A stretch of 64,000 nucleotides of DNA, taken from Roseivirga sp. UBA6061. GTDB lineage: Bacteria > Bacteroidota > Bacteroidia > Cytophagales > Cyclobacteriaceae. A model generated the notes under the pieces. That model was not told where the DNA came from. It saw nothing but the letters and a program-made list of their open reading frames with translations, and ran no database searches. The stretch is from assembly GCA_002427745.1 (NCBI GenBank), contig DIYF01000187.1, positions 61,092 to 125,091 on the forward strand, given 5' to 3'. Positions 49,546-63,895 of the stretch are shown piece after piece (within the stretch, counting starts at the first letter, position 1; every line of letters starts with the position of its first letter). The position numbers and the translations under genes were made by a program.

Positions 49546-50307
49546 CTATCTCAACCCGGCCATCTTCGTAAGGAAGTCTTCTCTGCGCTTTTGTGATATG
49601 CTGATGGTGGCATCGTTGTTCATGAGAATATAGCCTCCGTCAGACTTGACAAAACGTTTTACCTCTTTCAGGTTGATCAAAAAGCTGTTGTGAACCCGCA
49701 TAAAGTCATGGTCGGCCAGCAGGGTTTCATATTCTTTCAGGTGCTTGCTGACAATGAGCTTTTGATTGCCTTTGAGCATGAAATTGGTGTAAGAGCCATT
49801 GGCCTCACAATAGAGGATATTGTTGGTCTGGATAAACTCAATGCCATCGGCTGTTGAAAGACAGATATTGCGGTTTTCCTGCTTGTTGTCCAGGCTGGCC
49901 AGCAGTATTTCCAGCTGCTGTCTGCGCTGGCTCTCGTTTTTCTTTATGCCGGCCTTGTGCAGTGCAGCACGTAGTTCTTCCGTGTTGATGGGTTTTAGCA
50001 GGTAATCCAGAGAGCTGAATTTGATGGCTTTCAGAGCATAGTGTTCAAAGGCTGTTGTAAAAATCACCTCAAAGCTGTGATGGGAGAGTTGGTTGATGAC
50101 ATCAAAACCATTGCCTTCATGAAGCTCTATATCCATCAATACCACATCGGGCCGCGTATTGGCAATAAGCTCAACCGCGTCACTCACTGAATCTGCTTCT
50201 CCCAATACCTTGAGAGTAGGGTCAATCTCCAGAAGCTGGTCTTTCAGATCCTCCCGGTTATGTTGTTCGTCCTCTACTATTACTACACTCAGCATATGCT
50301 TATTCAT
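49546..50307 (-). CDS. LytTR-family response regulator
   Basis: Start ATG 50307 (MNKHMLSVVIVEDEQHNRED) is chosen over the longer open frame to 50406, because the receiver domain starts within a few residues and it overlaps the kinase gene end by 8 bp. 253 residues. Receiver: VVIVEDEQHN, phospho-acceptor in DVVLMDIELHEG, Lys in LLKPINTEELR. LytTR domain: DFMRVHNSFLINLKEVK and ISISQKRREDF. Paired with the 7TMR-DISM kinase upstream. Lies 290 bp upstream of the six-Cys peptide operon on the same strand. Confidence 0.92.
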   Translation of the reverse strand: MNKHMLSVVIVEDEQHNREDLKDQLLEIDPTLKVLGEADSVSDAVELIANTRPDVVLMDIELHEGNGFDVINQLSHHSFEVIFTTAFEHYALKAIKFSSLDYLLKPINTEELRAALHKAGIKKNESQRRQQLEILLASLDNKQENRNICLSTADGIEFIQTNNILYCEANGSYTNFMLKGNQKLIVSKHLKEYETLLADHDFMRVHNSFLINLKEVKRFVKSDGGYILMNNDATISISQKRREDFLTKMAGLR

Positions 50308-52189
50308 CTTTAGGGATAAGAATAGACACGCGTGTGCCCGCTGCTTCATTCTGCTCGTCCACAATATCGGTAATTTGTATGATCTGAGAGTCACTTTCCT
50401 TACCATGCAGGTGGCTTACCCGCTGAGCGACAATGGAGAGCCCGCGGGATTGATGCGAAACGCCTCTGGCAGATTTCAATTCAGTCGATTTTTGCCGGCC
50501 AATACCATTATCTTCCACCGTACACAGTATCTGGTCATTGTGATCAGCAAAGCTTACAGATAGCCTGGCAGGTCCCTTTTTGGGCAGCAGGCCGTGGAGA
50601 ATGGCATTCTCTACATGTGGTTGCACCAGCAGAATGGGGATTTCCAGATTATAAACATCCAGATTTTCATCAACTTCCAACTGATAGCTGAATCGCCCGT
50701 CAAAACGAAGAGATTCCAGCTGAATATAGTTTTCCAGTAAGTCAATCTCTTCCTTCAGGCTAACGGTACTGTGATTAGAGCTATCCAGGATTTGTCTCAG
50801 CAGTTGAGCAAACCTGGAGAGGTACTGCAGGGCCTCACTTTTCTGGTCACGCCTGATCAGGTGCTGTATGGAGCCCAGGGAATTGAAGATAAAGTGGGGG
50901 TTCATCTGGGCTCTTAAAGCACTCATTTCAAGCTGTAACACCTCCTGCTGTATTCTGGCATTTTCCATCAGAATACCACGGCTCTTATAGCCAAGCCCCA
51001 GGGTGAAAACGAAGATTTCAACAGAGCTCCCCAGCAGCATGTAGTTATTATCTACAAGAAACAGTGTGGCCAGGGCACCGGCTGTGTATGAAAATGAACC
51101 GATCACAATGAAGAAAACCAGATTGGATTTTCGTTTTACAAGCAGATAAACCGCCCCTAAGATGCCAAAGGTGGCCATAAAGTATCGCTGGGCGTCCATC
51201 ATAACCAGGTGAGTCGCAAATTCATCGACATAGATCAGCCAACTGTCAATCACTATGAAAAGCCCCAGCACCACGGCAACGACATTGATCACCTTATCAA
51301 GGGCCGGATAATCTTTTTGTGTGCTCAGGAAGTACTTGGCGAAGAGGGTATAGCAAAGGTTGATCAATACCTGAAACTCCTGATGAATCATATATTCCAA
51401 CAGGGGCACCTGACCAAAAAGACTGTCATCTAGCCCGAAAGGCCTGCGGCCAAAGTATACCAGCAAGGAGAAGAGATAGAAACTGTAATAGAGGTACTCT
51501 TTTCTTTTTTGAAGGATAAAGGCTGATAGTGAAAAGAGCAGTACAATGATGACCAGCCCGGAAAAGACCAGGGCCGGAATGCGCCCCTCCAAGAGCCTGA
51601 GAAAGATGCCGTCATTGGCAGCATCTGCCACTGACCTGCGGGTCAGGGTTATGCGCTGAGTACTGATGTCTCTTGTGGCCATAAGCTTTCGCAGGCGCAA
51701 ATACATATATCTTCCATCTATGAGCTCGGCTACGTTGAAAGGAACATTGGAGTCTATCAGGGTGCGCTTTTGACCGGTCATTGGAGCCAGATAGCCAAAC
51801 TTCAATGGTATGATACCATCAGGAATCTCCCTGAAAAGGGTAGCATCCTCGAAGCTGCCGGCAGCCAGCACCCACTCGGGTTCAGTAGCCAGGAGGTCCA
51901 GATGGTCTGAAAGATCAATTCTCATCCAGTAGATATCTGATGGATGAGATTTACCAAATGAATCAGGAGACCGGAAAGAGACCTTTGAGTCCGGGTGCAG
52001 TATATCCTGAACAGACAGCGTATCTCTAGTGGTACGGAAAATCTCCGGAACTGCCCTGATGCGATCCGTATCGACACTGGTCTGAGCACGCGAGGACATT
52101 GGTTTTATAAGGAAAACCAGAAGCAAGCCTGTCCATAGAATAAAATGTAACCAATTGGTTTCTTTGCGATGCTGTGGCTCTTGAATCAT
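50300..52189 (-). CDS. 7TMR-DISM sensor histidine kinase
   Basis: The protein has 629 residues. After an N-terminal signal/anchor, an extracytoplasmic DISMED2-like domain (about 50-185; HPSDIYWMRIDL) is followed by seven helices (IPALVFSGLVIIVLLFSLSA onward), the 7TMR-DISM arrangement. Then the LytS-type His_kinase domain has its His in MNPHFIFNSLGSIQHLIRRD, and the HATPase region includes ENAILHGLLP and VEDNGIGRQKS. It signals to the LytTR regulator at 49546, with which it overlaps by 8 bp. The ligand of DISMED2 domains is often carbohydrate, unproven here. Confidence 0.92.
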   Translation of the reverse strand: MIQEPQHRKETNWLHFILWTGLLLVFLIKPMSSRAQTSVDTDRIRAVPEIFRTTRDTLSVQDILHPDSKVSFRSPDSFGKSHPSDIYWMRIDLSDHLDLLATEPEWVLAAGSFEDATLFREIPDGIIPLKFGYLAPMTGQKRTLIDSNVPFNVAELIDGRYMYLRLRKLMATRDISTQRITLTRRSVADAANDGIFLRLLEGRIPALVFSGLVIIVLLFSLSAFILQKRKEYLYYSFYLFSLLVYFGRRPFGLDDSLFGQVPLLEYMIHQEFQVLINLCYTLFAKYFLSTQKDYPALDKVINVVAVVLGLFIVIDSWLIYVDEFATHLVMMDAQRYFMATFGILGAVYLLVKRKSNLVFFIVIGSFSYTAGALATLFLVDNNYMLLGSSVEIFVFTLGLGYKSRGILMENARIQQEVLQLEMSALRAQMNPHFIFNSLGSIQHLIRRDQKSEALQYLSRFAQLLRQILDSSNHSTVSLKEEIDLLENYIQLESLRFDGRFSYQLEVDENLDVYNLEIPILLVQPHVENAILHGLLPKKGPARLSVSFADHNDQILCTVEDNGIGRQKSTELKSARGVSHQSRGLSIVAQRVSHLHGKESDSQIIQITDIVDEQNEAAGTRVSILIPKDE

Positions 52190-52418: not shown

Positions 52419-52949
52419 ATGAAAAAGCTTAGTTTTTCCTTTCTCGTTTTATGTCTTACCGCAAGCTTCAGCTATGCGCAATCCAGTGCCGATCAATTGA
52501 TTGAGGATGCCCTGAGTACCTGGGACAAGCATGTGGCTTTGAACGCACTCATGTTGAACGGTATAAAAGAGGAGTATCTGTCGGATAAATCCGCATCAGG
52601 TGGACGTAATGTAGGAGAGCAGTTTGCCCACCTTCACGAAGTTCGGGTGATGTGGCTGTCTCAGCTGGCCGCTGATAAAGTAAAAGGGCTGGATAATAAG
52701 ATAGATGCTCAGGAGAGCCTCAGAAAGGAATACCTGACCGAGGCGATGACTGCTTCTGATAAAGTGGTAAGGGAGGTGCTGAAAGAGGCTTTAAAAAATG
52801 GTACCCGTTTTGGCGAGATGAGTGCCACACGTTTTCTTGGCTATCTGATTTCACACGAATCCCATACACGAGGTCAGGTCATTCTGGCAATGAAACAATC
52901 TGATCATCCACTTCCACCACAGGTGACATACGGGATTTGGGAGTGGTAG
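52419..52949 (+). CDS. Secreted DinB-like protein
   Basis: The protein has 176 residues. A signal peptide (MKKLSFSFLVLCLTASFSYA) precedes a four-helix DinB-type domain with GEQFAHLHEVRVMWL and LISHESHTRGQVILAMKQ, the usual His positions for a metal site. DinB-family proteins (including bacillithiol transferases) are usually cytoplasmic, so a signal peptide is unusual. It heads a three-gene plus-strand row with the hypothetical protein at 52963 and the gene at 53342. Function unknown. Confidence 0.75.
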   Translation: MKKLSFSFLVLCLTASFSYAQSSADQLIEDALSTWDKHVALNALMLNGIKEEYLSDKSASGGRNVGEQFAHLHEVRVMWLSQLAADKVKGLDNKIDAQESLRKEYLTEAMTASDKVVREVLKEALKNGTRFGEMSATRFLGYLISHESHTRGQVILAMKQSDHPLPPQVTYGIWEW

Positions 52950-52962
52950 TTGTTTCAGAAGC

Positions 52963-53268
52963 ATGGATTTGCTTTGTGAAAAATATCCTGAAGGCTCGTT
53001 TGTACATTGGCTTGCTATGTTTGATATCCATCAGAAAGATTGGTCGGACGAGAGCATAAAGGACCACGCAGGCATGTACAATCACATTGAAGGTAAGGAG
53101 GAATATGACGAACTGTGCCGGGAAGTTGAGCAGATTCTCTCCAATGATGATTTGGCGCTGTTTGTCGACTACCAGAAAGAGCATGAGTTTTCGATATCTC
53201 AGGGGAGTTTGGCCGATTTGGAGCGTATGACGAGGCTTATGCTCAGTTTTGATGCCGGGGTGGAATAA
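52963..53268 (+). CDS. Hypothetical protein, 101 aa
   Basis: A small acidic, mostly helical protein with MDLLCEKYPEGSFVHWLAMF and later GKEEYDELCREVEQIL and DLERMTRLMLSF. No signal peptide or known domain is seen. It begins 13 bp after the DinB-like stop and is followed after 73 bp by the next gene, so it may share a transcript. The gene is supported by its frame and position; I cannot assign a function. Confidence 0.5.
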   Translation: MDLLCEKYPEGSFVHWLAMFDIHQKDWSDESIKDHAGMYNHIEGKEEYDELCREVEQILSNDDLALFVDYQKEHEFSISQGSLADLERMTRLMLSFDAGVE

Positions 53269-53341: not shown

Positions 53342-54553
53342 ATGATGAAAGTTGGATTGATAGGTGAGGGGACACATAAAAGCCTGCTCAGGCAATACCC
53401 CCTGAACCTTGAGAGAGTGTTGTTGGTGAAGGAGAATGGTATACAAGAGACACTTCAGGGAAACACGCTAAACGACTGGATTCAAAGAGGTGAATCTGAT
53501 AATGAAATCGACACGCAGGCAAGCGGGGCAGTTCTCAGCCAGCTGCTTCAGGCCGTAAAATCATGTGATGATATTGTAGTCAGTATAGCTCAGGTACCGG
53601 TGTATCCTCCGGAAACTGCCATGAAAGCGCTTGGTACCGCACTTGAATGGATGGCTGAGCATATAGAGCCTGATTTTTTGCATATCGGTTTTTCCAGCCC
53701 TGATGGCCGATACCAAAAGCTTCAGAATAGTTGGTTAGCAAAACTTCATGAGAACGGTTGTCAGGTTATTTGTCCCGCAGGGATTCCTCCGGCTTTTCCG
53801 GCTTCTCTTCATCATACCATCTCGGTGGCCGATCGTGGCTTTATCGATGCCGGCTTTGAGTTCAGCAATCCGACCGTTGTAGTGGAAGAGAGGGAAACGG
53901 CTGTTTGCCTTGGCAGTACCTGGGTGAAGCAGGCGGTATCCAATGAGGTGGCCAGTGCTATGGTGTTGGGACAAATGCTGGGAGATGAACTGGCAGAGCT
54001 ACCCGACAAAAACACGAATCTCGTTCAGCTTCCCTCGCTGGATGATATCGAATGGCCGGCTTTTTTAACAGATACTGTAGAAGAAGAGCCGCCTTACAGC
54101 CCGGGCTCATTTCAAAGGGGAAAGTCATTTTTGAAATCGATTTTATCGCGGATCATTACGCCTAAAGGCAAGGTGCCGGCCTTTGTGAAAGAAACCAGAA
54201 AAGTGAGCTGTAATGGAGATGGAGCCATGATTAGGGCATGTGATTTTAGAAAAGCCAGCAGAACGAAAGGTGCTTTTGTCTGTGGGGCTTGTGGTTGTGG
54301 TGACCGGGAGAGTGTTTTCGTAGACGGTCCTGTGCCCGGCTTTGAAAAACTCGATTACCCTTATGTGAGCTGCCCGGCCAGTATGCCGGGCTTTTCAAAT
54401 TATCTGTCCTCCGTTGAGGAGTCGCAGCCCTCTGAAAGAAAGCTTAGCATTGAAGCAAAGTTTGGTGAACAGACACTGAAGAAAGGGCAGGAGGTACAGG
54501 AGAAGATCAGCCAACGCCTCGATAAGCGTTTAGGTTGGCTGGATAGATTCTGA
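53342..54553 (+). CDS. Degenerate subtilase-like protein with Cys-rich segment
   Basis: The protein has 403 residues. Its first 220 residues resemble a subtilisin core without the catalytic triad: MKVGLIGEG in place of the Asp strand, ALEWMAEH and FLHIGFSS, then QVICPAGIPPAFPASLHHTI like the AAGN-to-YPA stretch, and QAVSNEVASAMVLGQML like the Ser helix. Residues about 285-355 carry Cys in VSCNGDG, RACDF, VCGACGCGD and VSCPASMPG, possibly metal binding. No signal peptide. It converges with the peptide operon (stop codons 13 bp apart). Pseudo-subtilases occur near peptide clusters, but a link here is only positional. Confidence 0.4.
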   Translation: MMKVGLIGEGTHKSLLRQYPLNLERVLLVKENGIQETLQGNTLNDWIQRGESDNEIDTQASGAVLSQLLQAVKSCDDIVVSIAQVPVYPPETAMKALGTALEWMAEHIEPDFLHIGFSSPDGRYQKLQNSWLAKLHENGCQVICPAGIPPAFPASLHHTISVADRGFIDAGFEFSNPTVVVEERETAVCLGSTWVKQAVSNEVASAMVLGQMLGDELAELPDKNTNLVQLPSLDDIEWPAFLTDTVEEEPPYSPGSFQRGKSFLKSILSRIITPKGKVPAFVKETRKVSCNGDGAMIRACDFRKASRTKGAFVCGACGCGDRESVFVDGPVPGFEKLDYPYVSCPASMPGFSNYLSSVEESQPSERKLSIEAKFGEQTLKKGQEVQEKISQRLDKRLGWLDRF

Positions 54554-54566
54554 GATGCTCATGGCT

Positions 54567-55052
54567 TTAATATTCCACTTTATCTCTGAAAAAGGCCCAA
54601 AGCGAGTGTCGCGTAAAGACTGTAGCAGTTACGGAAGCTCCACTATTGTCCTGCAGATACCTGGTAATCGGAGCCAGAGGCTCATCACTGGGCCGCAGTG
54701 AAATGGCTAGGCTTTCCTGGTTTTGAGATACTTCTTCCTGAAGAGAAGTCACTGTAGCCTTGATCTTAGTGCCATTTCCCAGCCTGATTTCTGCCGGTGT
54801 ACCGGTTTCTATCAGTGCAGCACGCGACTTTTCTGTGTGAAAGATGAACTCTTTTTCGGACGTAATGGTACCGTTAAGTGATAGTGCTATATCCAGTGAA
54901 ACAGTGGAGGCGAGGTACACTCCGGTGGCGATCAGTACACCAAACAGCATAACTGAAAAGAGTCCGATTCTGGATATCAGAAACATACCCGGATGCTTTG
55001 GGTCACTGAGTGGGGGTAAAGCCCTGACTGACTGGTTTAAATTGGGTTTCAT
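54567..55052 (-). CDS. Minimal HlyD-like membrane-fusion protein
   Basis: The protein has 161 residues. One membrane helix (FSVMLFGVLIATGVYLAST) is followed by a single strand-rich domain with IETGTPAEIRLGNGTKI and TVTSLQEEVSQNQESLAI. This matches the beta-barrel part of HlyD-type adaptors, without the coiled coil and lipoyl halves. It is the last gene of the peptide operon, overlapping the ABC exporter by 4 bp, so it probably assists export, perhaps only at the inner membrane. Much shorter than ordinary adaptors (300-450 residues). Confidence 0.55.
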   Translation of the reverse strand: MKPNLNQSVRALPPLSDPKHPGMFLISRIGLFSVMLFGVLIATGVYLASTVSLDIALSLNGTITSEKEFIFHTEKSRAALIETGTPAEIRLGNGTKIKATVTSLQEEVSQNQESLAISLRPSDEPLAPITRYLQDNSGASVTATVFTRHSLWAFFRDKVEY

Positions 55053-56881
55053 AGCTTTTCTTCCTGTAGGTCAATGATTTGAGACTCTTCTACCCGAGGG
55101 GTGTCTACTGCAGCGGGGGAAACCATCTTCTTGAACTGAGGACTGTTTTGGACCAGGTGTTGGTAGTTTCCCCTGGACACAATCGCACCTTGATCCAGTA
55201 TAAATATCTCATCAGCCCTGACCAGATTTTTTACCCGATGCGTCACAAAAACGGTAGTGATGCTGTGCTGCTTCGCAAAAGCAGAAAGGCGCGCGAGTAG
55301 GGCTGATTCTGTCTGAACATCGAGGTGGGAGGTAGCCTCATCAAGTATCAGGATCTTCGGTTTTCTGATCAGCGCCCTGGCGATGGCAAAGCGCTGTCGC
55401 TGGCCGCCTGAAAGGCTGCTTCCCCATTCTGAAACGGGCGTTTCATAGCCCTCTGGAAGCGACTCAATGAGTTCCTCTAGTTGTGCGATTTTTACCACTT
55501 CGGAAACCAGGGCTGAATCCACCGATTCCATGCCAATCGTCAGGTTTTCCATGACCGTACCCCTGACCAGTTGTACTTCCTGCCAGACGATGGCTATTTG
55601 CCTGCGAAAATCAATCAATGGAATCTCCTCAGTAGCTATGCCATCGAAGAGGATGCTGCCGGAGCCTTGTTGCTCGAACCTGCTTAAGAGTCGCAGGAGT
55701 GTAGTTTTTCCTGAACCGCTCAGTCCTACAAGCCCATGTAAACGACCAGCTTTGAGATCCATATTGATCTGGTCCAGTACCGGTTGGCCTTGCCGATAGG
55801 AGAAAGATACCTCTCTCAGTGTAATGGCGCCCTGCAGTTTTACCCTGATGGCAGGTGGTGATTCATAGGCCAGAGAGGGATCCTGTTCCGGAGCCTTATC
55901 CAGATATTCATACACGCGATCCAGATTGACGGCAGCCTGCTGGAAGCTGCTGAAAAGATTGATCAGTGTAGAAAATGGTCCATACATATAGGCGATGTAG
56001 GCAGTAAAGGCCACATAATCTCCCAGGCTCATCTCTCCCTGAATGATATAGCGCCATCCGAGCCAGGTAAAGAGTGCCATGTTCAGGGCATTGAGCAGGC
56101 GGTCTGACATGCCTACCAGGGAGCTGATGGAATGAGCCCGTAAATGAGCTTTCAGTGATTTCTGCTGAATAGCGGCACCGCGCTTATAGTTATAATGTTC
56201 CAGACCCAGTCCTTTGAAGGTTTGCGCCTGACTCAAAACCTCTACCTGCAGAGAGTCAAAGTCAGCCTGGGTTTCTGCCAGGTTCTGCCAGGTGTTGCGC
56301 ATATACTTACCTGAATAAAAGGTAATCAGCACAGTAACAGGAATGGCTAGCATAGCCACCAGGGCCAGCTTCCAGTGCAGAAAGAACAGAAAAGGGGGAA
56401 CCAGCAGGAGGTAAATACCCTGACCGAATAAGACCTGAATGGTATTGACAATGGCTGCCAGGGCACTTTCTCCATCGGCAAAGCGACTTTTGATCTCACC
56501 AACCTGGTGCTGTACAAAAAAGGAGAGAGGCAGGTGCTGCAGGTGGTTGAGAAAGTGCAGGTTAAATACACCATCCAGCTTGGCATTGATATAGGAAGTG
56601 TAATACTGCAGTGCTGTATCCGCAATAGCTGAGGCGATGGTCACCACCAAAATACCAAAGACGATAACTTCCATCAGAGTAATGCTACCTGTGGGATATA
56701 CCGAGTCGAAAAGCAGTTTGGTAAGGAAAGGAGTAACCACTGCCAGCAGACCGATGACAGGTCCCAGGATAATGCCCTTTCCCAGCTTTCTCCAGTAGGG
56801 TCTTACCAGCTTCATCAACCGCAGAAAGTAGCCAAGGGCCTGTTTCAGCCCAATACTATGGTTTGTGTCGAATGAACTCAC
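55049..56881 (-). CDS. ABC exporter (fused membrane and ATPase domains), without C39 peptidase
   Basis: The protein has 610 residues. Six membrane helices span about 30-320, beginning PYWRKLGKGIILGPVIGLLA and TPFLTKLLFDSVYPTG, the pattern of peptide/toxin exporters. The ATPase has Walker A GLSGSGKTTLL, Q-loop, signature SLSGGQRQRFA, Walker B ILILDEATSHLD and H-loop VTHR. There is no N-terminal C39 peptidase, so it would not remove a double-glycine leader. Gaps: 7 bp after the DUF1611-like gene and a 4-bp overlap with the HlyD-like gene. The likely cargo is the 57-residue peptides. Confidence 0.88.
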   Translation of the reverse strand: MSSFDTNHSIGLKQALGYFLRLMKLVRPYWRKLGKGIILGPVIGLLAVVTPFLTKLLFDSVYPTGSITLMEVIVFGILVVTIASAIADTALQYYTSYINAKLDGVFNLHFLNHLQHLPLSFFVQHQVGEIKSRFADGESALAAIVNTIQVLFGQGIYLLLVPPFLFFLHWKLALVAMLAIPVTVLITFYSGKYMRNTWQNLAETQADFDSLQVEVLSQAQTFKGLGLEHYNYKRGAAIQQKSLKAHLRAHSISSLVGMSDRLLNALNMALFTWLGWRYIIQGEMSLGDYVAFTAYIAYMYGPFSTLINLFSSFQQAAVNLDRVYEYLDKAPEQDPSLAYESPPAIRVKLQGAITLREVSFSYRQGQPVLDQINMDLKAGRLHGLVGLSGSGKTTLLRLLSRFEQQGSGSILFDGIATEEIPLIDFRRQIAIVWQEVQLVRGTVMENLTIGMESVDSALVSEVVKIAQLEELIESLPEGYETPVSEWGSSLSGGQRQRFAIARALIRKPKILILDEATSHLDVQTESALLARLSAFAKQHSITTVFVTHRVKNLVRADEIFILDQGAIVSRGNYQHLVQNSPQFKKMVSPAAVDTPRVEESQIIDLQEEKL

Positions 56882-56888
56882 TCGGTTA

Positions 56889-58712
56889 TCAGTATTGAGA
56901 GGTTAGCTCAGACTTCACCAGCGCTGCCAGTTCATCAATCTCTTCAGGCACTGAAAATATGGGAATGCCTGTAGTGGTTTCGATTTGACTTTTTGTATCC
57001 TCGATTTTATTTCCCCGAACGTCCATAAAGTAGGTTTCCGTCCAGCGAGACCCCTGAAGTTTACGACCTCCCATAATGGCAAAGGCAATCACTCTGGTGG
57101 TAATACCTTTCTCTGTGGCCAGTTCCTGAATGTAGTCCAGCGATTTGGTGATGGTCTCCATAGGTGTATCAACCGCAGCTGTCAGAATCACATAGTTGGG
57201 TAAAAACTCGGAGAAGATAAGGGTAGAGGCATTGCCCCGATAAGTGCCTCCCGGAGGATCGAAGACCATAGAGTTCTGACCTCCGGTTATCATCAGGTCA
57301 CTTTTCTGCTCAAGCTCATCCTGCAGCTTTCTGTGGACAGTAAAGCGCCTGTCCATATCTTCTTCTTTCAGTCTGGAAAAGCCAATATCCGCATTGAGCA
57401 GCGAACCTGTGGGTTCTGTCGCAAAGTGACTCACCGTCTCCAGTTTCTCTTTCAGGGCCTCTCTGAGATAGATCTGTGTTGTGAATTTGCCCTGTACCGA
57501 ATCTGTACCAAAGATGCACAGGGTCTTCCGGGGTTTAAAAGTCCGGTAATGGTCAGTATCGGCCTGACTGATATCATAGTTTTCAACACTCACACGGTAG
57601 AAGTGACTTTTGTCTTCGGTGCGATCAAATATGTCGGCATACTTCAGTACATCGTCATAGAGCGATAGCACGGGCAGTTTTTCCTTTACTGCCCGCTGCA
57701 TGATACGTTTCAAAAACCTTACCTCTGATTCATAATTGATGGCACAGGTAAGAATTACTGCATCAAAGTCCAGCGTATCAACTGACTCAATATCATTCAC
57801 TACAGGAATGGAGGTCTTTTCTGATTGAATATAGGTGGATGCGTCTTCCAGCTCCACAGAGTCATCGAATACCACGGTTGTTTCATAACAGGTCAGCTCG
57901 TGGAAGCGCAAAAGACTGTAGGCCTCTTTGTTATACTTAAAAACAGCCACCTTTTTGCCTTTAAGCACGTTTTCTACCTCTTGTCGCCTGAATAGCCCCC
58001 GGCTTTGTTCCTGATCTTCATTGTGTACCGCAATGCGCTCCTTGATATCCCAGATTTCTTCCAGTTGCTGATTTAGTTTCTGAAAGTCATACTTCGGGTT
58101 CACACTCATATTATTGGAGGTGAGCATGGGCATACCAAAGTCGGGAGTGGTAAAATAATAAGGCTCATCCAGGGCTGAGACTTTCAGCATATGCTGAGAT
58201 TCCGGGTGAAGTATAAAGTGCTGGCCGTAGATGTAAAGCCCTCCTTTTTCATATAAGGCAGGCTCCAGGTTGACTGATTTCAGCTCGCCCAGTGATTTCC
58301 CCATATCGTCTTCGATCAGCTTGTAGATGTCAAATACAGGTGGTTCAGCAGGTTTTTCGGTAGTGATGTAGGTGAAGTAGTTCAGGAAAGGGTCTACCGG
58401 AAATACACTGGCCACCTGCTTTTTGCGCAGTGGAATCTTTTCCATCGCGGCTGCAAACTGTTCCAGGAAGGCTTCCTGGGCTGCAGGCCACTGCGATGGG
58501 TCGGTATGCATAAAGATGTAATCACTGCCTGTAAGGGTTTCGAAAAATGGGATGGCATCCAGGTCCTTTTCAAGGTCAATATTGGCTTCGGCAAACTTGA
58601 GCATGGAATACATCCAGCAATTCGTTTGAGCCATCCAGTGCTCACTGTAAAAATCATAGCCCCAGGTGGAGTAATAGAGTTTTGGTAGTTCGGGTGCTTC
58701 AATAACTGACAT
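56889..58712 (-). CDS. Two-part protein with DUF1611-like P-loop domain
   Basis: The protein has 607 residues and no signal peptide. The N-terminal 230 residues (LPKLYYSTWGYDFYSEHW, then SGYDY-like repeats and YIYGQHFILHPESQ) match nothing I recognise. The C-terminal half resembles DUF1611: a Rossmann-like part (LKGKKVAVFKYNKEAYSLLR), a P-loop IFGTDSVQGKFTTQIYLREA near residue 400, ATEPTGSLLNADIGFSRL, and MITGGQNSMVFDPPGGTY. Members of that family include DgcN, a D-glutamate N-acetyltransferase. The gene lies 23 bp after the GH57 gene and 7 bp before the exporter. It may activate or modify the peptides. Confidence 0.55.
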   Translation of the reverse strand: MSVIEAPELPKLYYSTWGYDFYSEHWMAQTNCWMYSMLKFAEANIDLEKDLDAIPFFETLTGSDYIFMHTDPSQWPAAQEAFLEQFAAAMEKIPLRKKQVASVFPVDPFLNYFTYITTEKPAEPPVFDIYKLIEDDMGKSLGELKSVNLEPALYEKGGLYIYGQHFILHPESQHMLKVSALDEPYYFTTPDFGMPMLTSNNMSVNPKYDFQKLNQQLEEIWDIKERIAVHNEDQEQSRGLFRRQEVENVLKGKKVAVFKYNKEAYSLLRFHELTCYETTVVFDDSVELEDASTYIQSEKTSIPVVNDIESVDTLDFDAVILTCAINYESEVRFLKRIMQRAVKEKLPVLSLYDDVLKYADIFDRTEDKSHFYRVSVENYDISQADTDHYRTFKPRKTLCIFGTDSVQGKFTTQIYLREALKEKLETVSHFATEPTGSLLNADIGFSRLKEEDMDRRFTVHRKLQDELEQKSDLMITGGQNSMVFDPPGGTYRGNASTLIFSEFLPNYVILTAAVDTPMETITKSLDYIQELATEKGITTRVIAFAIMGGRKLQGSRWTETYFMDVRGNKIEDTKSQIETTTGIPIFSVPEEIDELAALVKSELTSQY

Positions 58713-58735
58713 GATGTGTGTTTTTGTTACGGTGA

Positions 58736-59944
58736 TCAGGCAAATACTTCTTCTTCGGTTAGCTGATATTGCAGGACTTCTGAGAGCCAGTCCACGCCCT
58801 CATGCCACCAGTGACCAAATAACTCGGTATCGAAGGCCATGATAAAAGTGTGCTCATCGTGGCTCAGACCACGGTTTTTCTCCAGAATCCGGTCAAACTC
58901 TGCCACCTGTTCCTGTACTTTGGCCTTTGCCTGATGCAGGTCGTAAAGCTGCTTGTATCCCAGGTCTACATTCTCACCGGTAATGCCAAAGTACTTGTAG
59001 CCGGTCCAGGCAAGTCCGGATTTGCCGCGATGTACTTCCACATCAATGTAATCGAAGTAGTCAGGAGATACATCCAGTCCAATATCCCGGTAGAACTCTC
59101 TATAGGCGCCATCCGAAGGAAAGGTAGTGTCTGGTGCTTTCCACAAGTACATGGCCAGGCGGTAATCGTGTGCATAAATGCTCAGGTTGTCCTGTTGGTA
59201 ACGGCCGCTTTTATCAGTGCCTGTATAGGCTCCTATACCCGGTACGGTCATGGCTGTAGCGCCAATCCCATACTTTTTTATATACTTTTCAGTGCCCGGG
59301 AAATAGGCACTCTCAGGCATCCAGAAGCCATCAGGGGTGCGATTAAATACACGTTCAAACTCTTCCTTACCGCGTTTGATAAAGTGATCTACCGTGTGCC
59401 CTTCAAAAAAGGGAAGGAAGTTGTGAAAGGGGCTGGAGGTCCAGGCGTCAATACCTGTTTTTTTGTCTTCAAACAGATTGGAGAGGTAGGAGGCAATGTC
59501 GAGGTCTTCCCAGAATTCCCGACTGTCTCTCACCCTGTCCAGGTAATAGTGAGCGGTATTATGTGCCAGGCTCAGCTGATGTTCGGATACATCATTCTTG
59601 TGGTTTAAAAAACGGTTGTATTCATGTGCGCTGGCCGTTCGTTCAATTTCATATTCACCTATCTTTTCCATTTTATCCAGATAGGCCAGGTATCGTTCTT
59701 TGCCTTCAATGAGCTGATTGAACAGGCAGGGGGTCATAGAAAAAATGATTTTTTTGCCGGGCTGATTCACCGGATCCCATTGTTCCAACGCTTTGAACAG
59801 GGGGATGTAGGTTTCTGTAATAGCCTCAAAGAGCCAGTTCTCTTTCTCCTGAAATATGGGCCCGTCTGTAAGTACATAGGGCATATGTGTATTGAGAATG
59901 AAAACAATTTCCTTGTTGGCAGGTGGTTTCGTATGGGTTTGCAT
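58736..59944 (-). CDS. GH57-like protein
   Basis: The protein has 402 residues. Motifs typical of glycoside hydrolase family 57 are visible: VFILNTHMPYV near the start, GFWMPESAYFPGTEKYI with the catalytic Glu near residue 210, and IMAFDTELFGHWWHEGVDWL with the catalytic Asp near residue 370. This last motif is characteristic of GH57 branching enzymes. It is shorter than those (about 500-550 residues) and lacks a secretion signal. Placed between the peptide genes and the DUF1611-like gene, it may act on a glycan or glycosylated peptide. Its substrate is unknown. Confidence 0.7.
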   Translation of the reverse strand: MQTHTKPPANKEIVFILNTHMPYVLTDGPIFQEKENWLFEAITETYIPLFKALEQWDPVNQPGKKIIFSMTPCLFNQLIEGKERYLAYLDKMEKIGEYEIERTASAHEYNRFLNHKNDVSEHQLSLAHNTAHYYLDRVRDSREFWEDLDIASYLSNLFEDKKTGIDAWTSSPFHNFLPFFEGHTVDHFIKRGKEEFERVFNRTPDGFWMPESAYFPGTEKYIKKYGIGATAMTVPGIGAYTGTDKSGRYQQDNLSIYAHDYRLAMYLWKAPDTTFPSDGAYREFYRDIGLDVSPDYFDYIDVEVHRGKSGLAWTGYKYFGITGENVDLGYKQLYDLHQAKAKVQEQVAEFDRILEKNRGLSHDEHTFIMAFDTELFGHWWHEGVDWLSEVLQYQLTEEEVFA

Positions 59945-60147
59945 AGGTGGCTGAGGTTTTTAGTCAGGAGGGTGGGAGCACTTCTACAGACCTGAAGGTG
60001 CAGGAATGAAAAGGGCATAGCTTTCCTGGTCAGCTAGTAGGATAGCTGAATCTATTTTGAAATTCAGAATAGGAAAATGAATTATATGGATGGGATTGCG
60101 TGAATCAGCTGTGATGTCATTTTCGGTGAGCCCGGTATAACAGTTAA

Positions 60148-60184
60148 CCCAAACGACCGGAGATGTTACTGCCGGCCATTTGGG
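60148..60184 (-). other. Hairpin between peptide gene 2 and the GH57 gene
   Basis: CCCAAA-GGCCGG pairs with CCGGTC-TTTGGG (minus strand), 12 pairs with one mismatch and one G-U. It lies 32 bp beyond the second peptide stop and 204 bp before the GH57 start. No T-tract follows, so it may be an attenuator or an RNA-processing/stability site. Confidence 0.5.
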
Positions 60185-60215
60185 TACTACTTACTAATTC
60201 AATGCAATCTGAAAA

Positions 60216-60389
60216 TCAGCTTCTTGCGTCTTCACATCCGGCCAGAAAACGATCTTCACCTGTTTGCCTGTTACAGGCCGGGTTCATACCACTGGCTGAA
60301 AGAATAGAGTGACTAAAATGGCTGGTGCCTGCTTTGGCGGGCTTCAGCTTATCCATCATATTACCGATTTGATTTTTTGTGTATTTCAT
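60216..60389 (-). CDS. 57-residue precursor-like peptide, copy 2
   Basis: ATG 60387-60389 to TGA 60216-60218. It starts MKYTKNQIGNMMDKLKPAKA and ends GEDRFLAGCEDARS. The central part has HFSHSILSASGMNPACNRQT. Two Cys, at 39 and 52. No signal peptide, hydrophobic stretch or double-glycine site. It is 93% identical in protein to the peptide at 60516, with 29 silent codon differences and 4 changed residues (14, 20, 23 and 38). Exactly 300 bp separate the copies, so it arose by tandem duplication. Likely a precursor or signal peptide exported by the ABC system. Confidence 0.8.
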   Translation of the reverse strand: MKYTKNQIGNMMDKLKPAKAGTSHFSHSILSASGMNPACNRQTGEDRFLAGCEDARS

Positions 60390-60515
60390 GCTCTTGTTGT
60401 TTAAAAGTTAATGGTCAGGCGCAAGGCCGGAAATTAGGTGAGCCCCAAACAACATCTTGCCGGGCAAGCTGCTCTTCGGGAGACCTCACCAGTTCAACGA
60501 TTGTATGACCGTTGC

Positions 60516-60689
60516 TTAGCTTCTCGCATCTTCACAACCTGCCAGGAACCTGTCTTCGCCAGTTTGTCTGTTGCAGTAGGGGTTCATGCCGCTGGCAGAC
60601 AGAATCGAATGGCTGAAATGATTGGTACCTGACTTGGCTGGTTTCAGATTGTCCATCATGTTACCGATTTGGTTTTTAGTGTACTTCAT
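60516..60689 (-). CDS. 57-residue precursor-like peptide, copy 1
   Basis: ATG 60687-60689 to TAA 60516-60518. It starts MKYTKNQIGNMMDNLKPAKS and ends GEDRFLAGCEDARS, with Cys39 and Cys52 and MNPYC where copy 2 has MNPAC. The last 33 residues from Ser25 on differ at only one position between copies. It is the first gene after the 287-bp AT-rich region holding LytTR-type repeats, so it is the likely promoter-proximal gene. I do not recognise a named RiPP or pheromone family. Strong codon-level constraint shows it is a real gene. Confidence 0.85.
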   Translation of the reverse strand: MKYTKNQIGNMMDNLKPAKSGTNHFSHSILSASGMNPYCNRQTGEDRFLAGCEDARS

Positions 60690-60742
60690 GCTCTTGTTTT
60701 TAAAAGTTAAAATGAGGTTAAAACATTATGAATGTACTGGAT

Positions 60743-60777
60743 ACGATTGCATTAAGCAATGACAACGTTTGCATTAA
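60743..60777. promoter_or_regulatory. Candidate LytTR regulator binding site (direct repeats)
   Basis: ACGATTGCATTAA (60743-60755) and ACGTTTGCATTAA (60765-60777) form a direct repeat with one mismatch and 22-bp periodicity. LytTR regulators such as PlnC or ComE bind pairs of about 9-bp direct repeats spaced near 21-22 bp upstream of peptide promoters. The site is 54-88 bp upstream of the first peptide start, and the LytTR gene at 60977 is adjacent. Confidence 0.6.
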
Positions 60778-60976
60778 AAAATGATAAAAATAAAATGATT
60801 GGTTTTGAGTTAGTTGTATTGTTAGATAATATAAATTATTATGATTGCTGATCGGGAGGCTATTTCTCTCGCTCTTTTTCACTTCTCAGTTTTATATGTC
60901 TTGAAACCCCAGTGTTCCAAGAGCGATTGATGATGCAAAAATGAGTCGATTGAGTCACTCCGGGAGTAAGATGAAC

Positions 60977-61771
60977 TTACTTGTACTGATTCATAATAAA
61001 CTCAAGCCGGTCTTTATAACTCCGGCTTAGTTTCAGTGATGTGCCATTAGTGAGGTTGACCATATACTCACCATGGAAGTAAGGCTCTATACTCTCGATC
61101 GCATCGATATTGACCATATGAGACTTGTGAATCCTCAGGTGGCCGGAAGGGTCCAGTAGTTGCTCCAGGTTTTTCACAGAGAGGTTTGTAAGCTCAAAGC
61201 CATGGTTGAGGTGTAGTTTGCAGAAGGTACCTTCACTTTCAATCCAGAGGATATCTTCCACGGGTACAAACCTGATTTTACCTTTCTGCTTGCAACTGAT
61301 CTTTTTGAGGTATCGCTTACCAGAATCCTTTGAGAGCATTGTTTCAAAAGCAGACATAAGCTTATCGAGCTGATCCGGTCTATGTGGGGCTTCATTGCTT
61401 TTAAGCTGCGTTCTGATACGTGAAAGGCTCTTTCGGAACCTGGACTGATCGAAAGGTTTAAGAATATAGTCCAGTGCATTTTCTTCAAAAGCCCGGATGG
61501 CGTAGTCATGGTAGGCGGTGACAAAGACAATAAGCGGCAATGGGGTTTCTAAGCGACCAATCAGGTCGATTCCTGATAATTCAGGCATCTCAATATCCAG
61601 TAAAACCAGGTCAGGTTTCTTATCAATAATGGCCTTCAGAGCCGCCTGTCCGTCTCCGTATTCGCCCAGCAGGTTAAAATCGGTTTCTTCATTCAGAAAA
61701 TGAACCAGCAATTGTCTTGCAACAGGTTCATCATCAGCGATGATCACAGATATGGTGGGAGCGCTACTCAA
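60977..61771 (-). CDS. LytTR-family response regulator
   Basis: The protein has 264 residues. Receiver: VIIADDEPVARQLL, phospho-acceptor Asp in PDLVLLDIEMPELSGID, Lys in YILKPFDQSRF. LytTR domain (about 160-262): YLKKISCKQKGKIRFVPVED, HLRIHKSHMVNID, and SLKLSRSYKDRLE. Its start overlaps the kinase gene by 4 bp. It lies directly upstream of the 57-residue peptide genes on the same strand, with a 287-bp gap containing the direct repeats. It is the probable activator of the peptide operon. Confidence 0.92.
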   Translation of the reverse strand: MSSAPTISVIIADDEPVARQLLVHFLNEETDFNLLGEYGDGQAALKAIIDKKPDLVLLDIEMPELSGIDLIGRLETPLPLIVFVTAYHDYAIRAFEENALDYILKPFDQSRFRKSLSRIRTQLKSNEAPHRPDQLDKLMSAFETMLSKDSGKRYLKKISCKQKGKIRFVPVEDILWIESEGTFCKLHLNHGFELTNLSVKNLEQLLDPSGHLRIHKSHMVNIDAIESIEPYFHGEYMVNLTNGTSLKLSRSYKDRLEFIMNQYK

Positions 61772-62877
61772 TTTACGGGGATAGACAGATATGAATTTAC
61801 ACCTTTTCCGTTGTCATCATTGTACAGAGAAAAGTCAAAGGTATCGCCATAGAGCTTTTGTAACCTTTCGGTGGTATTGCTCACCCCAATACCTGTACTA
61901 ACCTGACCGGCCAGTACCGGTCCGTCATTATAGATATTGATCATAAGTCTGTTTTCACTTTGATGGATTTTCAGGCAGATCATACCAGGGCCTTTGTTTT
62001 TGGCAATGCCGTGTTTTACTGCATTTTCCACCAGGGGCTGCAGAATAAGGTTGGGCACTTTTGCAGTGAGCAAATCATGGTCAATTTGCTTTTTGATCGT
62101 CAGTCTGTCTTTAAAGCGAATGGATTCTATGTCGAGATATAAGTCAAAGAATTCCAGCTCTTTAGCCAGGGGTACCAGCTGTTGTTCTTCATAGTCGAGT
62201 GTTCTGCGTAAAAAGTCACCCAAACGGGTGGTTACCCTGGCCGAAGCCTTGCCGTCACCGATCAGTGTGAGTGATGAAATGGTGTGCAGGGTATTGAAGA
62301 GAAAGTGAGGGTTGAGCTGAAGTTTCAGCGCCTGCAGCTGAGCCTGTGTCAGCTGGTTGCTGAGTCGGTCATTTTTTAACTGCATCAGGGTCATATCCAG
62401 TTCCTGCTGCTTGCGGAGTCCGTAGGATTGTACTGTAATGATTACCCCCAGTGTGAACACATAAATCAGAGCATCATTGGCCACTCTCGAATAAAAGTAG
62501 GGACTATACTCGGCATAACTTGTCTGGCTGAGATCGATATACCCATGGGTCATGAACATATAGACCAGGGTCAGGTTGGTGGTTACCAGCAAGAAAGCGA
62601 GCCCGAAGAGAAGATAGGCCAGCAGAGGCCTCCAAAGTGCTTCAAGCCTTAAAGGAAAGCGATTGACCAGATACAGAAGAAAAGGTGTGGAGAGCGCCCA
62701 GAAGTACCATATAGGGAGCTGATCGCGGAATACGATGAGCCAGCTGGAATCGACTCCGTTTTTAATACCATTGAAATGAAGCTGGGTGCTGATAAAGGCC
62801 GCTATAAATGTCCAGAAAGAGAAAAGGGCCAGCCATTGCTTTTTCCGAATCCTTCTGTATGTGTCAGCTGGTGTCAA
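61768..62877 (-). CDS. LytS-type sensor histidine kinase
   Basis: The protein has 369 residues. Four hydrophobic segments lie in the N-terminal 155 residues (WLALFSFWTFIAAFISTQ, WYFWALSTPFLLYLVN, LLAYLLFGLAFLLVTTN, VANDALIYVFTLGVIITV). The His_kinase domain has its His in LNPHFLFNTLHTISSLTL, and HATPase includes ENAVKHGIAKNKGPG. No extracellular domain is seen, so it probably senses a membrane or small-peptide signal. It is coupled to the LytTR regulator by a 4-bp overlap and lies at the head of the peptide locus. Confidence 0.9.
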   Translation of the reverse strand: MTPADTYRRIRKKQWLALFSFWTFIAAFISTQLHFNGIKNGVDSSWLIVFRDQLPIWYFWALSTPFLLYLVNRFPLRLEALWRPLLAYLLFGLAFLLVTTNLTLVYMFMTHGYIDLSQTSYAEYSPYFYSRVANDALIYVFTLGVIITVQSYGLRKQQELDMTLMQLKNDRLSNQLTQAQLQALKLQLNPHFLFNTLHTISSLTLIGDGKASARVTTRLGDFLRRTLDYEEQQLVPLAKELEFFDLYLDIESIRFKDRLTIKKQIDHDLLTAKVPNLILQPLVENAVKHGIAKNKGPGMICLKIHQSENRLMINIYNDGPVLAGQVSTGIGVSNTTERLQKLYGDTFDFSLYNDDNGKGVNSYLSIPVN

Positions 62878-63166
62878 GATGCTTCCTGTAAAATGACAAG
62901 TTAAGTTAATTGATGCCCATAGCGAAAGAAGGAATCATAACCCGCTCTTTATACATTACGAAACGGCCTTTTCTTTTATGAATTCTGCTTTCCGGACCTG
63001 TTAAGGTCTTTTTCGCCAATACCGGCCGGTGAAGTATGATCTCAGTCCGTTTCGTTTTACCGATAGTCCCTTTTTCCACTTCTGTCCAACGTCAGGGCAG
63101 TGTTTGCGCTTGATTAGTCAGTCAGTTGATGACTATGAACAAGCCGAAAACAATAATTCACTTAGT

Positions 63167-63895
63167 ATGAAAAAACAACTTAACATACCATGCATGCTCA
63201 TGATGGCGCTGTTGCTGTCATGCGGGGCCAAAGCACAAAAGCCCGACCCCATTTACCAAAAAGTGTTGCCAGGAGATATTAACCTGAGCCCGGACCGTAT
63301 CAAGTCACATAAAGTGTCCTACAAAAAGGGCAGGGGGCGGATGATCTATGATATGCATAAGGTGCGTAAATGGGACCGGGAAGTATATGAACTGGCCATT
63401 TACTTCGGAGATGAAAGTGCTACTCCTGACCGGATTTATATAGATCCTGGTTCATTGGGCTTTGCCGGCCGAAGACTGCAAATGGACAAGGCTGGTTATA
63501 CGCTGGATTTACAGTTTGATGACAATACCATGAAAGGAGCGCTGACTCCGCTTGAGGGGTCTGATTATGAGTACAGGGAATACAACAAGGTACATCCTCA
63601 TGAAGCTTTCGAACCGGCCGTGATCAATTATGCGATCACAGCGCTGCCTTTGAAAGAAGGCTATACGGCCTCAATTCCCACTATGGACCTCAATAATGGA
63701 TCTGAAATTATTTGGGCCAATATTAAAGTAGAGAAACGGGAAGAGGTGACCATCGGCAGCAAGACTTTCGACACCTGGAAGGTAACTTCCAACGGTATAC
63801 GGAACAAGACTGTCTGGGTGACTACTACCGAGCCCTATGTGATCAAAATGAAAACCAAAGGCAATCCCGGAGTCTGGGAGCTGGTGACGGAATAG
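63167..63895 (+). CDS. Secreted protein of unknown function (DUF3108-like)
   Basis: Start ATG 63167 (MKKQLNIPCMLMMALLLSCG) gives a lipoprotein-type signal with LLSCG; the earlier start at 63029 does not. About 242 residues. Beta-rich body with DRIYIDPGSLGFAGRRLQMD, then VINYAITALPLKEGYTASIP and VTIGSKTFDTWKVTSNG, which recall DUF3108-type envelope proteins. Divergent from the LytS gene at 62877. Function unknown. Confidence 0.55.
   Translation: MKKQLNIPCMLMMALLLSCGAKAQKPDPIYQKVLPGDINLSPDRIKSHKVSYKKGRGRMIYDMHKVRKWDREVYELAIYFGDESATPDRIYIDPGSLGFAGRRLQMDKAGYTLDLQFDDNTMKGALTPLEGSDYEYREYNKVHPHEAFEPAVINYAITALPLKEGYTASIPTMDLNNGSEIIWANIKVEKREEVTIGSKTFDTWKVTSNGIRNKTVWVTTTEPYVIKMKTKGNPGVWELVTE

Follow-up and report, generated by a model that had tools for sequence, protein, structure and literature searches.

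A probable RiPP-like peptide cluster with a GH57 and DUF1611 enzyme in Roseivirga and myxobacteria

The nearest described relatives of the gene cluster considered here are peptide systems of the CLI_3235/TIGR04066 and FlmA-like kinds, in whose clusters DUF1611-type proteins, subtilases and exporters are found. The SacP23 cluster of Paenibacillus polymyxa, in the available part of its description (PMC10731318), comprises a TIGR04066 protein, a subtilase, an exporter and a radical S-adenosylmethionine (SAM) enzyme. The qhp pathway, as far as the available text of PMC7876137 goes, includes an ABC export step and makes Cys-to-Asp/Glu thioethers with a radical SAM enzyme. The present cluster lies in a stretch of 64,000 nucleotides (the window) from Roseivirga sp. 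UBA6061, a member of the Bacteroidota (assembly GCA_002427745.1, contig DIYF01000187.1, positions 61,092 to 125,091), where two 57-residue peptide genes stand with genes for a GH57 enzyme, a 607-residue DUF1611 protein, an ABC exporter, a short HlyD-like protein and a subtilase-like protein (Table 1). An earlier sequence-only reading had proposed that the peptides are exported and may be modified by the GH57 and DUF1611-like pair. We consider that this is probably a maturation and export cluster like those of ribosomally synthesized and post-translationally modified peptides (RiPPs), in which the core of the precursor is modified by the GH57 and GH57-C/DUF1611 enzyme, and then processed and exported. 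That the peptide is a substrate of GH57-DUF1611 seems very probable; leader removal and export would follow the modification.

The evidence that carries this interpretation is the recurrence of the genes across two phyla. A scan of reference genomes returned 15 loci, namely those of Roseivirga FE80, Fulvivirga M361, a Bacteroidetes metagenome-assembled genome (MAG) and 12 myxobacteria, and 23 loci were compared in all (the window, L013, L014, L024, L016, L021 and L060-L076); unfused database homologs such as P0014-P0027, P0043 and P0047-P0055 lie outside the neighbourhoods compared. Precursor genes are found upstream of GH57-DUF1611 in 21 of the 23 loci, in Bacteroidota as well as Myxococcota, and the peptide, GH57, DUF1611 and exporter genes recur together, which the sequence-only reading had proposed as a check. 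That reading was to fall if homologs of the small peptides did not occur beside the exporter elsewhere; they do occur there, in both phyla. At one of the two misses (L064) the contig starts 48 bases before GH57, and three precursors of that genome lie at the end of a different contig (L097), while the other (L076) is a fragment without GH57. Counted by genome, the precursor is present in 4 of 4 Bacteroidota loci and on the same contig in 17 of 18 myxobacterial genomes, the remaining one being the contig break. The ABC gene lies downstream in 22 of the 23 loci; L024 instead has ABC, full-length HlyD (385 residues) and subtilase genes upstream.

Whole genomes give the same picture. Among the Myxococcia, the class of Corallococcus, full-length GH57-DUF1611 is encoded in 18 of 147 genomes and precursors in 18 of 145, and these are the same 18. 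Matches had been obtained in 39 of the 147, and the count of 18 was reached after dropping 20 genomes with canonical GH57 only and one (G804) with a fragment of the DUF1611 part. In the window's family, the full-length protein and the precursors each occur in 3 of 295 genomes, again the same three, and six family genomes with weak DUF1611 matches only have no precursor of this family. The precursor scans were limited to 40 first-look candidates per genome in the 145 Myxococcia, and to 20 in the window's family. A chance neighbourhood of unrelated genes could appeal to the fact that only the downstream four window genes are tightly packed, but it is contradicted by the cross-phylum recurrence, by this co-occurrence and by a clade of fused enzymes, and its probability is negligible.

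The two 57-residue peptides are real genes. Between peptides A and B, correctly described before as tandem and near-identical, 30 codons show synonymous and 4 show non-synonymous differences, with third positions accounting for 31 of 37 base differences, and the peptide pairs of the window and Roseivirga FE80 show synonymous to non-synonymous ratios of 23 to 3 and 20 to 2. Four database proteins are 80-95% identical to the window peptides, and the sole other match in the window's own genome has an E value of 0.85. The window peptides and the short open reading frames (ORFs) upstream of GH57 in related loci have a common leader, in which M[KRE]Y[TS] precedes [IV]-x2-[LM/I]-[LM], and their tails contain Cys and Glu-Asp motifs. 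When 49 precursors, including three of the 12 second-locus precursors described below and two of ten lone ones, were collapsed to 33 at 80% similarity, a tail Cys was present in 33/33, as was at least one Glu-Asp within the last 32 residues (two or more in 31); shuffles gave a mean of 5.1 peptides with at least one Glu-Asp, and a maximum of 12. One hallmark of a RiPP, an encoded precursor with a conserved leader and a distinct tail beside conserved enzymes, is found here, and the product would be a precursor with an N-terminal leader for recognition and a C-terminal core bearing Cys and Glu-Asp. Among the 18 myxobacterial genomes, 12 have a second, divergent precursor, which in 12/12 is immediately followed by a subtilase with its triad intact, and at ten further loci a precursor has no subtilase match within the stretch compared. 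An extra partial precursor match, to the tail half of the profile only, lies at L073:3821-3922.

GH57 and DUF1611 form one protein in myxobacteria and are encoded by two genes in the window. The 607-residue protein consists of a GH57 C-domain (residues ~1-95), a beta-rich stretch (~96-245) and a DUF1611 module (246-602) with the P-loop GTDTVQGKFTT. The sequence-only reading had called it a DUF1611-like P-loop protein, and its membership in DUF1611 (PF07755) is borne out by a score above the gathering threshold and by its fold; that label left out the beginning of the protein, which is a GH57 C-domain because the gene break in the window falls inside the GH57 enzyme. Judged by alignment, the two window genes together are predicted to make one enzyme. 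The 607-residue protein has at least 58 database homologs at E 0.001, from a search that scored 7996 candidates sharing most words (one further search had 521 candidates), and 12 of them exceed 800 residues and also carry GH57. All fused homologs with an organism name are myxobacterial, and in a tree of 55 the GH57-DUF1611 fusions group together as a single clade (support 100/99). This enzyme, a single protein in myxobacteria, would modify the core.

As to the reaction, the GH57 nucleophile E211 and acid/base D372 are kept in 14 of 14 aligned copies, with the motifs in 18/18 myxobacterial copies, and W17 and W26 of the 607-residue protein fall on the gatekeeper positions Trp402 and Trp411 (AmyC numbering) and are invariant in 35 sequences. 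The polarizer His (H10 of AmyC, with its role as given in the available part of PMC6616209) is replaced by Asn in 14/14 aligned cluster copies and 18/18 myxobacterial ones, two overlapping sets, whereas canonical GH57 enzymes keep it in 11/11. Residues 1-19 of the 607-residue model, with one gatekeeper Trp inside, have low confidence. The model of the 995-residue fusion is of moderate confidence, with a mean predicted local distance difference test score of 69.1, and for this reason only its first ~494 residues were used, over which the sequence agrees (4-488). Matches by fold to the P-loop part do not tell one P-loop ATPase from another, with ParA and MinD scoring about equal. For a GH57 active site, glucosyl transfer would be the simplest use, and we tentatively suggest, as the most likely single chemistry, that GH57 takes an alpha-glucosyl group from a donor of the glycogen type and attaches it to a side chain of the core, the DUF1611 P-loop module performing a second step on that core with the help of a nucleotide or acyl-CoA. 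The window genome also encodes a glycogen-synthase-type domain (PF08323) and one further GH57 protein. The reaction may not be glucosyl transfer, because every cluster copy looked at has Asn where GH57 branching enzymes have the polarizer His, and this replacement, together with the Cys and Glu-Asp of the tail, leaves room for other chemistry. In the same maturation cluster a repurposed GH57 might form a crosslink or an ester at the tail Cys and Glu/Asp, with DUF1611 activating the carboxylate by ATP. The presence of Asn in every cluster GH57 looked at and the occurrence of Cys and Glu-Asp in all 33 tails fit such a scheme, as does the nearest named family of the myxobacterial subtilase, QhpE (below cut-off, 69.6 vs 165 bits, NCBIfam), although the thioethers of qhp are made with radical SAM in the available account (PMC7876137); given the retained nucleophile, acid/base and sugar-groove Trp, and P-loop matches that do not single out carboxylate ligases, we hold it to be possible, at less than even odds and about as likely as the glucosyl transfer suggested above.

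The eight genes of the block proposed earlier are real, and a ninth, the subtilase-like gene, belongs to the cluster too. It is homologous over ~220 residues to the 230-residue myxobacterial subtilases, whose gene follows HlyD in 16 of 18 myxobacterial clusters, the contig ending earlier in L060 and L074. The Asp/His/Ser triad is intact in 16/16 readable myxobacterial clusters and also in L024, a Bacteroidota MAG; in the triad alignment, the matches of L077 and L078 stop short of the Ser column. The window, L013 and L014 lack a conserved triad: the His is gone, and the Asp and Ser are off the aligned columns. The window homolog was rejected as an active protease, and leader removal in the window is unexplained because its subtilase homolog is without the triad. 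Subtilases with an intact triad would remove the leader, and the degenerate form may only bind the peptide. The degenerate subtilases (window 53342-54553, L013:14275-15501, L014:14265-15491) have a Cys-rich C-terminal extension that is absent from the aligned myxobacterial forms. Leading into the subtilase-like gene are a DinB-family gene and a 101-residue ORF (window 52419-53268, + strand), and ORFs of similar size and order are present in L013.

The ABC/HlyD pair would export the product. No C39 peptidase was matched in the exporter, only membrane and ATPase domains, and its match to C39-type exporters starts after their peptidase part, in agreement with the exporter lacking C39 that had been described. 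The single-domain HlyD assignment holds by position, with homologs at the same place in most related loci; by score, it has only a weak adaptor match below the cut-off. Instead of a secreted bioactive product, the peptide could be a subunit that, like QhpC, matures in the cytoplasm and serves a structural purpose or carries a cofactor. The QhpE-like subtilase, the ABC export step in the available account of qhp (PMC7876137) and the near-identical peptide sequences of the window's close relatives, with no sign of diversifying cores there, are in keeping with a subunit; the loci compared have no partner enzyme subunit recurring beside the genes, and there are up to five precursor matches per genome, some of them lone genes, which makes it an unlikely reading.

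Table 1. Features of the cluster, with positions counted from the first nucleotide of the window
Feature	Position	Strand	Basis or remark
Predicted precursor peptide A, 57 residues	60516..60689	-	ORF; family of 49 precursors compared; purifying selection
Predicted precursor peptide B, 57 residues, 93% identical to A	60216..60389	-	ORF; sequence comparison
GH57 catalytic (A) domain, 402 residues	58736..59944	-	E211 and D372 kept; polarizer His replaced by N18
607-residue GH57 C-domain/DUF1611 protein (P-loop)	56889..58712	-	Pfam; alignment; fold model
ABC exporter, membrane and ATPase domains	55049..56881	-	Pfam; no C39 peptidase match
Short HlyD-like putative adaptor, 161 residues	54567..55052	-	Adaptor match below cut-off; homologs at same place
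Subtilase-like protein, 403 residues, triad not conserved, Cys-rich C-terminal extension	53342..54553	+	Convergent with the putative operon
Direct repeat TTAATGCAANCGTW, 22-bp period, candidate LytTR site	60742..60777	-	52 bp upstream of the start codon of peptide A
LytTR response regulator, local, not core	60977..61771	-	Pfam; locus comparison
LytS-type histidine kinase, local, not core	61768..62877	-	Pfam; locus comparison

An ORF check of the window placed all eight genes of the block on the - strand at the coordinates that had been given, with gaps of 23 bp between the GH57 and P-loop genes and 7 bp between the P-loop and ABC genes, and with overlaps of 4 bp for ABC/HlyD and LytS/LytTR. 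Between peptide A and LytTR lie 287 bp, with the direct repeat inside, and between peptide B and GH57 lie 271 bp; a single eight-gene operon as established fact was rejected on account of these gaps. A Pfam scan of ten window proteins matched GH57 at 54.5 bits (cut-off 21.2) and DUF1611 at 32.7 (cut-off 25), supported ABC, LytTR and His_kinase domains, and matched no radical-SAM, lanthipeptide or ATP-grasp family, as the sequence-only reading had it. The PADLOC and defence libraries matched 0 of 6 proteins. A scan of 54300-63300 gave 17 promoter-like sites (shuffles 11.4, standard deviation 2.7) and 10 terminator-like sites (shuffles 8.3, standard deviation 2.5), which are not used as evidence.

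The LytS/LytTR pair, previously regarded as part of the system, is present in the window; it adjoins the cluster in only 2 of the 23 loci, and was for this reason rejected as a core component and is a local addition. LytS/LytTR may switch on the peptide genes via the 14-bp direct repeat upstream of peptide A, which occurs once in the 8.18-Mb genome; the pattern was derived from the site itself, and its shuffle figure is therefore biased. L013 retains the upstream copy with its surroundings and has a degraded downstream copy. According to the available part of PMC6193735, a spacing of 12 bp is found for most repeats of LytTR regulatory systems, and the 22-bp period would be compatible with a LytTR-type site. 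The pair beside the peptides and the LytTR-like period upstream would suit unmodified signals, that is, a LytS/LytTR pheromone with GH57-DUF1611 as neighbouring sugar metabolism; against LytS/LytTR in 2/23 loci, however, stand GH57-DUF1611 with peptides in 21/23 and the co-occurrence in genomes, and such signals are highly improbable. Another LytTR/LytS-type pair, whose kinase has a 7TMR-DISM region, lies at 49546-52189 (- strand) of the window, ~1.2 kb from the subtilase-like gene, and a divergent DUF3108 gene at 63176-63895 (+ strand) is kept near LytS in L013 (80% identity).

Beyond the cluster itself, we lean towards a new RiPP class in Bacteroidota and Myxococcota, whose maturase would be a GH57 alpha-glucan-type enzyme with the polarizer His replaced by Asn, forming a single working unit with a DUF1611 P-loop module. 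It would modify the peptide through a new reaction or with glucosyl groups taken from glycogen, and the DUF1611 and subtilase module would be shared by several otherwise unlike RiPP pathways. Several points weigh against the maturation reading as a whole. The product and its modification are themselves predictions, and the Glu-Asp conservation leaves the residue of modification unspecified. Identity between peptide A and the aligned myxobacterial precursors is only 15-27%, and most of the precursors counted came from a profile built on such sequences. Within the window's phylum the system is seldom found: a single genome out of 395, the window's own, gave a match at E <=1e-30. To these are added the lost polarizer, the degenerate triad of the window subtilase, and the gaps before peptide A and GH57, which speak against one transcript.

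If GH57-DUF1611 does modify the peptide, a type of maturase is added to RiPP chemistry, an enzyme family of storage-sugar metabolism has been turned to peptide modification, and DUF1611 gains a role in maturing peptides that can be tested in clusters of more than one kind. Such a maturase would be expected to escape mining keyed on radical SAM, YcaO, ATP-grasp and lanthionine enzymes. The 49 precursors and the fused single polypeptide of Corallococcus make the proposal testable with one enzyme and one substrate of ~73 residues. In the open-licence literature searched, the GH57-DUF1611 pair is not linked to RiPPs, and no paper was found on DUF1611 with RiPPs. GH57 is mentioned in none of the matches listed for RiPPs or precursor peptides, and no paper on the DgcN enzyme stood among the matches listed for it. 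Among the matches listed, GH57 and bacteriocin or peptide maturation occur together only in PMC8399906, on Bifidobacterium longum genomics, and no title or abstract start on Corallococcus or myxobacterial RiPPs describes the system.

The earlier reading recognised no standard peptide class that the cluster fits; relatives exist nonetheless. The CLI_3235-type system (TIGR04065/04066/04068/04069), exemplified by SacP23, likewise has a short precursor, a DUF1611-like TIGR04066 protein, a subtilase and an ABC transporter, but, as far as the available part of PMC10731318 shows, it includes a radical SAM enzyme together with an acyl-carrier-related protein, and the SacP23 gene table has no GH57. For the window protein the TIGR04066 score is 25.5 bits, far below the cut-off of 200, and no radical SAM family was above cut-off in the ten window proteins. 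The FlmA/OhkA 'DD(I/V)LF' orphan RiPPs also have tandem short precursors, but differ, in the available account (PMC12703449), by an FlmE/OhkG-type radical SAM maturase and an acyl-carrier-protein-like (ACP-like) protein; their C-terminal DD(I/V)LF motif was found in 0 of 41 database precursors and in none of 8 others, including both window peptides. An FlmA-like cluster is present in the window's own family (L077:5288-10080), with three tandem precursors (28.0 and 24.0 bits for the two that were scanned, against a cut-off of 30) ahead of a radical SAM enzyme of FlmE/OhkG type (637.8 bits, cut-off 500), a subtilase-DUF1611 fusion and an ACP-like protein, and with no GH57 among the proteins scanned. 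A second subtilase-DUF1611 fusion (L078:616-3945) is found next to an ABC transporter, on a contig of 4.2 kb. The qhp operon (QhpC/QhpD/QhpE/QhpF) resembles the cluster in its subtilase QhpE, its ABC exporter and a polypeptide modified at Cys and Asp/Glu, and differs, in the available text of PMC7876137, in its radical SAM enzyme QhpD, its flavoprotein QhpG and a polypeptide that is an enzyme subunit. From the GH57 glycogen branching enzymes (AmyC, 2b5d; TK1436, 3n8t) the cluster GH57 differs by Asn at the polarizer, the tie or fusion to DUF1611 and the adjacent precursor genes, and from DUF1611 proteins such as 7xrj (titled N-acetyltransferase DgcN) the window protein differs by its extra GH57 C-domain, its beta-rich stretch and its peptide context. 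Glycocins use nucleotide-sugar glycosyltransferases and not a GH57 enzyme; glycosylation of a ribosomal peptide would be the common feature, should that chemistry be the right one. Judging from gene content, peptide clusters of different kinds contain DUF1611 with a subtilase, and GH57 appears to take the place here that radical SAM enzymes have in the others.

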